64,000 bases of DNA from Rhizobiales bacterium Ga0077548 (lineage in GTDB: Bacteria > Pseudomonadota > Alphaproteobacteria > Rhizobiales > Xanthobacteraceae), in assembly GCA_001464215.1 (NCBI GenBank), contig LNEZ01000076.1, positions 1 through 64,000 of the forward strand, in the 5' to 3' direction. The translations under genes were made by a program, and so were the position numbers. This document shows, piece after piece, positions 1,056 to 5,514 of this stretch (the stretch's first letter is position 1; the number at the start of each line of letters is the position of its first letter). Below the pieces are notes generated by a model. The model was not told where the DNA came from. It saw only the letters and a list, made by a program, of their open reading frames with translations, and did no database searches.

Positions 1056-1382
1056 ATGTTCGCTGGTTTTTATCAAGCTCGCTTTGAAACACCCGATGGC
1101 ATTGACCTCGGCGTAATGACACTTACAGAAGACAATAAAATCTACGGCGGAAACAACGAATTCATGTACGTGGGCAGCTACACTCGGCGTGGGGATAGCC
1201 TTTCAGCCGATATCGAGGTGAAGCCGCTTTTTGGGGTGAAGACCTCCGGTCATGTTCCTAGGGTTGGCCATAAAATTAAAATTACGGGCCGCGGCATGAC
1301 CCAGACCATCCTTTGCGTTTGCGAGTCGCCCGATTTGCCCGGCGTTGAAATGACAGCGACACTTGAGCGCGTGTATGTATGA
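1056..1382 (+). CDS. Small GrlR-like protein, function unknown
   Basis: A 108-residue protein without signal peptide or membrane segment, preceded by an AGGGAGG-like ribosome site. The N-terminal pattern (short strand, LGVMTLTEDNKIYGGNN, then YVGSYTRRGDSL) resembles the small beta-barrel GrlR family. GrlR represses type III secretion in enteropathogenic E. coli, but GrlR-like proteins elsewhere have no known role. Composition is visibly poorer in GC than uvrB, and the gene pairs with the equally AT-rich gene 37 bases downstream, suggesting joint acquisition. Family assignment is by eye and tentative; no type III secretion gene is present here. Confidence 0.6.
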   Translation: MFAGFYQARFETPDGIDLGVMTLTEDNKIYGGNNEFMYVGSYTRRGDSLSADIEVKPLFGVKTSGHVPRVGHKIKITGRGMTQTILCVCESPDLPGVEMTATLERVYV

Positions 1383-1418
1383 ACGCGCTGGCACGCAGTC
1401 GCTAAAGAGAAAGGGGCG

Positions 1419-2252
1419 GTGAATGCATTGAGCGAACTAATATTGAAGTGGCGCATTCGAATTGCGTTATTTTTCGACAATTTATATCTCGTATTTTTCG
1501 CGAAACGCAGAAACCCACCAGAGCCAATCGACATACCAAAGGTATTTGGCGAATTCGTCGCGGATTTTGGCGGCGAACTTAGCGACGAGATTCACGCCAA
1601 TTCAGCTCAACAGCCAGAAAATGCTGATTACATATTTCGCGACGACAATGTAGTCGCCGAATTAAAATGCCTTGAGGACGACCCGCTTAGCTTCAAAAAT
1701 TACACACGGCTAAATCAGACCTTGCTTCGCGCAGGAATGGTGCAACGGGAAATTGCTTTGTGGGCAGCGGGCATGATCCCACTTCCTCCCAAAGGTGGCC
1801 TTGCTCTCATTCAACAATTTAGGAAGCACATTCAACGAATAGCACGAAAAGCAAATCGTCAAATCAATTCTTCAAAGACCAACCAACAGCTTCCGACAGC
1901 TTCAGGAGTTCTGTTGATAGCAAATGACAATAATTATCTTTTCAGCGCTTGGTACAAATTCGTCCTAATATCTGACGTAATGGCACACCATCATGCCTCC
2001 TCAAGCATTACTGCGTTTGTTTTCTTCTCGCCGAATGTTCCAACAAGAATCCCCGGATCACTACGCGATCAGCATCCATGGATGCCATCTTATCAAGAAG
2101 GCGCAGCAGACTCTTTGCAGCATTTCATCAATAGGCTTGGACATGAATGGTGGATCTACTCGACAAAAGATGAGTACTCTCCAAACATTAAAATCCCCCA
2201 TCGCTCAGTCGGTGACTGGTTTCTAAGCTCAGGAAAAAATATTCGGCGATGA
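1419..2252 (+). CDS. Hypothetical protein with PD-(D/E)XK nuclease-like motif
   Basis: 277 residues from a GTG start preceded by AAAGGGGCGG. No known family is recognised with certainty. Residues about 67-84 read NADYIFRDDNVVAELKCL: an acidic residue followed after a turn by a strand ending in E-x-K, the signature spacing of PD-(D/E)XK nucleases. A hydrophobic strand (GVLLIAND) follows later. The N-terminal 30 residues are hydrophobic and basic and could touch the membrane. AT-rich codon use separates it from its neighbours and suggests transfer. Its stop overlaps the next start by 4 bases (ATGA). Nuclease activity is inference. Confidence 0.6.
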   Translation: MNALSELILKWRIRIALFFDNLYLVFFAKRRNPPEPIDIPKVFGEFVADFGGELSDEIHANSAQQPENADYIFRDDNVVAELKCLEDDPLSFKNYTRLNQTLLRAGMVQREIALWAAGMIPLPPKGGLALIQQFRKHIQRIARKANRQINSSKTNQQLPTASGVLLIANDNNYLFSAWYKFVLISDVMAHHHASSSITAFVFFSPNVPTRIPGSLRDQHPWMPSYQEGAADSLQHFINRLGHEWWIYSTKDEYSPNIKIPHRSVGDWFLSSGKNIRR

Positions 2253-4899: not shown

Positions 4900-5514
4900 A
4901 TGCGAAGGCTCTTGATGTATGCCGCGGCGTTTGTGCTCGCGGGCGCGGTTACCGCCCGCGCCGAGGACAGGATCGAATGCGCAGGCCTGTTCGGTCGCGA
5001 CACCTCGCACGCCGCACTTGTGAAAGCCTATGGCGAGACGAACGTGGTCTATAAAAAGATCGATGCGCCGCAGGGCTCGACCGGCATGGCGACCGTCGTT
5101 TTCGAGCGCCTCCGCAACCGCAAACTGACCATCGAATGGTTCGACGAGAAAAACCTCGCGCGCCCGATTTACATCAGCATCGAAGGACCCAAATGGGTGG
5201 GACCGCTCGGCATCCGGCTCGGCACGCCGATCGATGAAGTCGAGAAGCAGAACGGGAAACCGTTCCGGCTGAACGGCTTCGGCTGGGATCTAGGCGGCAG
5301 CGCCCGCTTCGGCAAGGACGACGGCAAGCTCGGCACTGTGCCGGGCGGCTGCCATTTCGGTCTCACCTTCGAGCCGACCGCCGAGGGCCTTCCGCTCGGC
5401 GGAAAATATCGTGTGCTGAACGGCAACAAGGATTTGCGTTCGGATTTGCTGCTTCTGCGCGAAGTGAAACCGGCCGTCGTCGAAATTCTCATCATCTATT
5501 CCGACAACCATTGA
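4900..5514 (+). CDS. Exported hypothetical protein, family A copy 2
   Basis: 204 residues with signal peptide (MRRLLMYAAAFVLAGAVTARA). It is a paralog of the 2249-2872 product, with the same order of landmarks: IECAGLFG, HAALVKAYGE, IEWFDEKNLARP, WVGPLGIRLG, GKPFRLNGFGWD and PGGCHFG. The conserved Cys pair is kept. The two copies are about 35-40% identical by eye, so the duplication is old. Function unknown; it acts outside the inner membrane if exported as predicted. Confidence 0.75.
   Translation: MRRLLMYAAAFVLAGAVTARAEDRIECAGLFGRDTSHAALVKAYGETNVVYKKIDAPQGSTGMATVVFERLRNRKLTIEWFDEKNLARPIYISIEGPKWVGPLGIRLGTPIDEVEKQNGKPFRLNGFGWDLGGSARFGKDDGKLGTVPGGCHFGLTFEPTAEGLPLGGKYRVLNGNKDLRSDLLLLREVKPAVVEILIIYSDNH

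Follow-up and report, generated by a model that had tools for sequence, protein, structure and literature searches.

A variable slot behind uvrB and its AT-rich cargo: a probable solitary nuclease gene and a GrlR-like barrel gene

Two AT-rich genes lie behind the DNA-repair gene uvrB at the start of the window (the whole 64-kb stretch of DNA that was analysed). This raises the question of whether they belong together, how they came to be there and what they do. The 3′ part of uvrB, named by reading of the sequence, is an open reading frame at 1-945 of the + strand. On the same strand follow gene A (1056-1382, ATG start, 108 aa) and, 36 nt farther on, gene B (1419-2252, GTG start, 277 aa). GC content is 0.51 in A and 0.45 in B, against 0.61 for the whole window, and third-position GC is 0.55 and 0.43, against 0.82 in uvrB and 0.84 in the next gene. 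B is the most AT-rich non-overlapping 834-base stretch of the 64 kb; the lowest GC elsewhere is 0.53. The sequence-only reading had placed both frames here, on this strand and with a composition unlike their surroundings, and this was confirmed. A promoter scan found 0 where 1.5 would be expected by chance, and Rfam gave no match at E up to 1 for 900-2400.

Downstream, the region is closed by a GC-rich open reading frame (2249-2872, + strand, GC 0.61) that overlaps the B stop by 4 nt (ATGA) and has no Pfam or NCBIfam match. Its homologues also occur in congeners without B. Of the six congeners with a readable far border, four have this gene there, with border homologues in G845, G861 and G806. 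As a separate observation, this gene and the one at 4900-5514 are paralogues of secreted type (42% identity over 171 residues), and the two bracket a cluster of small secreted-type proteins.

What lies between uvrB and this border differs from one congener to the next. Of the 8 genomes of the genus, 7 have a uvrB match, as do 38 of 41 relatives (E <= 1e-60). The window and G845 carry A then B, and G806 carries A followed by a DUF6119 gene (E 6e-129) on the other strand. A caspase-domain gene, also on the other strand, occupies the slot in G770 (Peptidase_C14, E 3.5e-17; PADLOC PDC-S65, E 1.4e-48), and G861 has DUF7662 (6e-18), MerR/DUF433 and DUF5615 genes. G827 has a 195-aa open reading frame and G890 one of 197 aa followed by the contig end, both without a Pfam match. 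Four slot-cargo proteins of congeners lacking B were compared with PADLOC, and one of them matched. In each of the six congeners measured, the slot is poorer in GC (0.47-0.55) than the sequence downstream of it (0.61-0.63).

The same border gene with different, compositionally odd content, seen across six congeners with a readable far border, makes a small insertion slot at the uvrB 3′ end the best reading of region 946-2248. To this extent the sequence-only reading is supported: the site is AT-rich and variable, and it holds defence-type genes in some relatives. Chromosomal defence hotspots, such as those of Pseudomonas and E. coli (PMC10250203, PMC10121019), likewise have a conserved gene bounding a variable slot. 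The uvrB slot differs from them in holding one or a few genes, in having no integrase that we noticed and, in two congeners, in having copies of the uvrB 3′ end at its borders. Outside the genus, tblastn detected neither A nor B in any of the 23 loci around uvrB examined from other genera (L068-L090, with flanks of about 1.5 kb), and a Pseudolabrys record from another collection has B behind uvrB. The slot offers a way to find more accessory or defence genes in this group.

The reading that we favour, and to which we give about an even chance, is that the slot holds two separately acquired genes: B, a probable metal-dependent nuclease of the PD-(D/E)XK type that is solitary, mobile and probably defensive, and A, a separate barrel protein. 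B would then be a low-GC accessory gene carried by phages, transposon-like elements and chromosomal slots, acting alone with no obligate partner.

Judged by profile searches, B is an undescribed family without significant match in Pfam, NCBIfam or PADLOC. No NCBIfam or PADLOC family was found for it at E up to 10, its two Pfam matches (E 0.08 and 0.13) lie far below the cut-off, none of 13 homologues has a Pfam match better than E 0.029, and PADLOC gave no match at 0.01 for the homologues at loci L043 and L054. B does match PHROG 20483, a family of unknown function, over residues 139-178 (E 2e-4), as do 6 of 13 homologues (best E 1.5e-9). Among open-licence papers we found none on B, on uvrB as a defence slot, or on the B-carrying phage AbIPP1 in print.

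Conservation provides the best clue to what B does. D70 (codon 1626-1628), E81 and K83 (E81-L82-K83, 1659-1667) form a D-x10-E-x-K arrangement that is invariant in 23 of 23 homologues (23 distinct rows, including the remote L010, with E 1e-8 and a long branch, and the broken or cut L047 and L053). Q148 (1860-1862) is kept in 22 of the 23, the exception being the broken row L047. All these codons are on the + strand, and the conservation spans members 15-52% identical to B. D70, E81 and K83 are the only acidic and lysine residues strictly kept in the set, and are candidate metal ligands and a putative E-x-K. The core picked out by eye beforehand (NADYIF...AELKCL) is thus real and conserved among homologues.

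The family is patchy. With its own genome included, B turns up in 4 of 397 genomes at the level of the order, 4 of 296 at that of the family and, with a five-sequence profile, 3 of 398 at that of the phylum. Across the genomes of 84,980 species, a pattern-based scan, which detects only copies with the conserved stretches, gave 11 loci in alphaproteobacteria, Acidobacteria and a Phycisphaerae bin. B is also found on viruses, with four distinct loci on IMG/VR viral contigs and one record, Acinetobacter phage AbIPP1, in a phage collection. A plasmid search gave nothing for B, A or the L043 homologue; the L054 homologue had a single weak match (27%, E 5e-4). GC of B homologues is at least 0.07 below that of the flanks in 12 of 18 other loci measured.

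The company B keeps elsewhere includes genes of known or candidate defence systems. In Martelella (L045), the Lamassu gene LmuB starts 350 nt from B, with LmuA after it (E 2e-234 and 4e-133); in G579 (L009), PDC-S52 lies 80 nt behind B (E 1e-90); and in G364 (L098), AbiEi (2e-55) and AbiEii (9e-72) lie 3.2 kb from B, with a weak type IIG match farther out. Weaker PADLOC matches near B are mad8 at L050 (3e-19), a homing endonuclease at L048 (2e-11) and RmrA at L056 (7e-11), and an N6 methylase fragment follows B at the contig end of L051 (E 7e-7). PADLOC matched neither of two neighbours at L057, nor the one scanned at L097. Five of 14 neighbour proteins, at three of eight loci, match PADLOC below 1e-20, and of 52 ordinary window open reading frames 47 served as a yardstick, with 0 below 1e-20 and 2 below 1e-5 (best 3.4e-17); since the neighbours were picked by eye at 8 of the 23 B loci, the comparison is no fair enrichment test. 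Neither A nor B belongs to a catalogued anti-phage system as defined by PADLOC-DB profiles (none at E <= 10). The defence claim for B rests on its company and its mobility, which agree with such a role but do not prove it. As a side observation, a similar-looking small acidic protein gene, recognised by eye, adjoins B on opposite sides in Martelella (L045, 5297-5839) and Boseongicola (L048, 6916-7632); the Boseongicola protein has no Pfam match.

If B is a nuclease, it would most likely serve to cleave the DNA of phages entering the cell or of rival elements. Other solitary nucleases recognise modified or replicating foreign DNA, and that B would spare host DNA in the same way is a guess by analogy with them. 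Shedu SduA (PF14082) is a single-gene defence nuclease and offers a parallel: both genes are solitary and patchy, and within the family 6 of 129 genomes have SduA and 4 of 296 have B. Profile-profile comparison gave no link between the two.

B homologues in phages could, however, serve the phage. B may be an element-borne nuclease that works for a phage or transposon, in DNA processing, exclusion of rivals or degradation of host or rival DNA, and that was left behind in chromosomes. The complete temperate-type phage record and the four IMG/VR contigs speak for this, one of the viral homologues lying 20 nt from an integrase-like open reading frame (recognised by eye), as does the homologue of G958 (L097), which sits behind TniB (E 7e-16) and TniQ (6e-19), both upstream of B by 0.7 kb and more. 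We consider this somewhat unlikely, given that lone chromosomal copies keep intact triads, that B stands behind uvrB in three genomes, and that genes of host defence systems are among its neighbours. It overlaps with the favoured reading of a solitary defensive nuclease, since exclusion of rivals is also defence.

The predicted structure of B is in line with a nuclease. The model (13 sequences; pLDDT 78.8, pTM 0.77; residues 253-277 unreliable) has a helix at 39-50, strands at 71-73 and 78-86, a long helix at 124-155 and a strand at 162-170. In this model, the short strand comes directly after D70, E81-K83 lie on strand 78-86, and Q148 is carried by the long helix. The order of helices and strands fits the PD-(D/E)XK core alpha-beta-beta-beta-alpha-beta, plus two added helices. 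The proposed active site lies on a beta hairpin, packed against the long helix with Q148, where D70, E81 and K83 would coordinate the metal and activate water. With the PD-(D/E)XK superfamily (restriction enzymes such as BsmI, PaqCI, FokI and EcoO109I; Vsr) B shares the D-x10-E-x-K and, in its predicted model, a D opening a short strand, the E-x-K on the next, a preceding helix and then a long helix and strand. The model differs in having the two extra helices between E-x-K and the long helix, and no sequence-profile link to the superfamily was found. B also differs from restriction enzymes in that its slot contains no partner methyltransferase or specificity subunit.

Fold alignments to nucleases are moderate: BsmI at Z 7.1 over 143 residues (rmsd 3.9), a CdiA toxin domain at 6.8 over 111, PaqCI at 5.0, FokI at 4.8, Vsr at 4.2 and EcoO109I at 4.1, all of which we take to be members of the PD-(D/E)XK superfamily. 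The top alignments are to acetyl-CoA carboxylase domains, at Z 7.8-8.7, a range that the tool calls unspecific. Foldseek found no match to the model at E <= 0.001 in PDB or viral models, and a sequence search of PDB with B gave best matches of E 0.03 and 0.39. Profile-profile comparison with SduA, Mrr_cat and HSDR_N_2 gave probabilities of 0.1-0.4%, no better than the reversed control, in a comparison of low power that also missed the SduA-Mrr_cat link. The fold comparison taken by itself is suggestive at most and does not decide the PD-(D/E)XK assignment. The nuclease claim for B is probable, being well supported by conservation and moderately by fold. The earlier description of B as PD-(D/E)XK-like stands on its D-x10-E-x-K in 23 of 23, and its fold part is suggestive, with nucleases at Z up to 7.1 against 8.7 for unrelated proteins.

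It is quite unlikely that B is instead an alpha/beta protein whose enzymatic or binding function has nothing to do with nucleases, and whose conserved D, E and K serve another site. The central domains of acetyl-CoA carboxylase do head the fold alignments, and neither Foldseek nor profile searches gave a significant match. Against this, the only strictly kept acidic and lysine residues have the exact D-x10-E-x-K spacing on a predicted hairpin. One ground for refutation named in advance was a profile match to a fold other than a nuclease; at the sequence level there is none (the best PDB matches are at E 0.03 and 0.39), though the highest fold alignments of the model, in the unspecific range, are to carboxylase domains (Z 8.7). 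If B is a nuclease, its family is small and solitary, is missing from the searched versions of Pfam, NCBIfam and PADLOC, and is present on phages, transposon-like elements and chromosomes. It is simple to test, as one gene suffices.

No Pfam, NCBIfam, PHROG or PADLOC family matches gene A at E up to 10, and none of 13 members of its family matches Pfam at 0.01. A single-sequence AlphaFold2 model (pLDDT 76.6, pTM 0.65) is all beta, and Foldseek places GrlR chains at ranks 1-3 for it (probability 1.00; E 0.004, 0.004 and 0.03). GrlR is a regulator of type III secretion in E. coli. VIA-align gave GrlR Z scores of 8.0 and 7.9, below designed and other barrels at up to 9.5. With a profile of 13 relatives, GrlR was the sole PDB sequence matched up to E 1 (0.021 and 0.033). 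The call of a GrlR-like small protein thus holds at the level of fold, and A is a GrlR-like barrel that probably serves as a small regulator or binding protein. The barrel is common to GrlR (PDB 2ovs, 4kt5) and the A model, whereas A lacks the EDED motif at the aligned place, the window having TRRGDSL where GrlR has SEDEDII (profile alignment). A 2007 paper cited by PMC9979310 has the EDED motif in its title. Of 397 genomes in the order, 22 have members of the A family, with at most four matches each, and the family has one-domain and two-domain forms. Away from this slot its genes show no AT-richness: over 29 loci their GC differs from that of the flanks by -0.013 on average.

The sequence-only reading had suggested that the A-B pair would fit a two-gene module for defence or toxin-immunity, and had named lack of co-occurrence as what would count against it. 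A adjoins B in only 2 of the 23 B loci, the window and G845; the flank available is as short as 1.5 kb at some loci and, on the upstream side of L054, 90 bases. The module reading fails on this count, and we reject it. It is very unlikely that B is a toxic nuclease and A its inhibitor or regulator, even with the two 36 nt apart on one strand and in the same order in G845 (A 63%, B about 51% identical), since A is alongside in so few B loci, G806 lacks B and has its A next to DUF6119, the Pseudolabrys B follows uvrB directly and has no A with it, and the A family frequently occurs in genomes without B (in the order, 22 of 397 have A and 4 of 397 have B).

B need not be a newcomer at this site, as had been supposed. 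In the B tree, the window, G845 and Pseudolabrys group in one clade, with ultrafast bootstrap and SH-aLRT both at 100 and no firm order among the three. Because G845 and Pseudolabrys both carry B behind uvrB within this clade, a recent arrival is not shown. B is about 51% identical between congeners and 49% between genera, where uvrB gives 93% and 76%. This equal divergence of B, while uvrB differs little, makes exchange at the slot possible. It is weak evidence, since other fast genes next door are just as divergent (41-55% identical between the window and G845). The data are compatible either with long residence accompanied by fast change and loss or with exchange at the slot, and do not call for a recent arrival. 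The Pseudolabrys sp. bin copy (L046, JALHRB010000013.1) has one in-frame stop in B near the residue aligned with W221 of the window, which marks either a decaying copy or a sequence error.

How cargo enters the slot may be recorded in the sequence at its borders. In the window, the uvrB end (923-943, + strand) recurs imperfectly at 1400-1420 on the same strand, with 18 of 21 nt matching and the stop position falling on the B start codon. None of 300 dinucleotide shuffles of the slot reached 18 matches (maximum 14). This copy overlaps the ribosome-binding site of B, and part of its likeness to the uvrB end may come from that site. In G861, the last 56 bases of uvrB are repeated (82%) just behind the DUF7662 gene, as though a fresh uvrB end had arrived with the insert and pushed the old one away. 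The G861 copies (locus L094) are at 837-896 and 1148-1203, and the DUF7662 start codon comes directly after the uvrB stop. Among the seven congeners tested, a copy is clear in G861 and short in the window. G845, G770, G827 and G890 gave only chance-level matches of 8-12 nt, G806 a 16-nt match that is not at the stop, and Pseudolabrys no copy (best 13 of 21).

These copies at cargo borders suggest repeated insertion at the uvrB end, and they offer a testable entry route for genes next to a repair gene. In Pseudolabrys L046, which lacks A, the B ATG is 5 nt behind the uvrB stop (5872 and 5878). We infer that B first sat directly behind uvrB and that an A cassette was later inserted between them, in front of B, leaving the old uvrB tail on B. 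A tRNA as integration site was considered and set aside: a tRNA is present in only 2 of 22 B loci scanned, at L051 150 nt before B.

A more far-reaching idea, which we regard as unlikely, is that the uvrB 3′ end is a self-renewing site. Each cassette would bring the last 20-60 bases of uvrB and so restore the repair gene, its cargo would come under uvrB transcription with the start codon often next to the uvrB stop, and cassettes would stack with the newest nearest uvrB. Cargo expression could then rise upon DNA damage or invasion, and B would be a solitary nuclease family that spread partly by this route. If this were true, accessory nucleases and other cargo would be riding on a DNA-repair promoter.

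Some minor observations concern the other cargo. The DUF6119 gene of G806 (L092, 9421-10977) has a GC content of 0.44 and no PADLOC match; among open-licence papers, one on wheat names DUF6119 and none relevant was found. A is 85% identical between G806 and G845 and 63-65% between either and the window, yet the window uvrB is nearer that of G845. The leader of A (946-1055, + strand) is conserved together with A in G845 and G806, with a mean column identity of 82% across the three leaders. A conserved hairpin before A was considered and dropped, with z 0.3 in the window (absent) and z -0.7 in G806 (weak). In G845 (L091), a strong hairpin covers the ribosome-binding region of the leader at about 562-596 (-22.7 kcal/mol, z -3.1).
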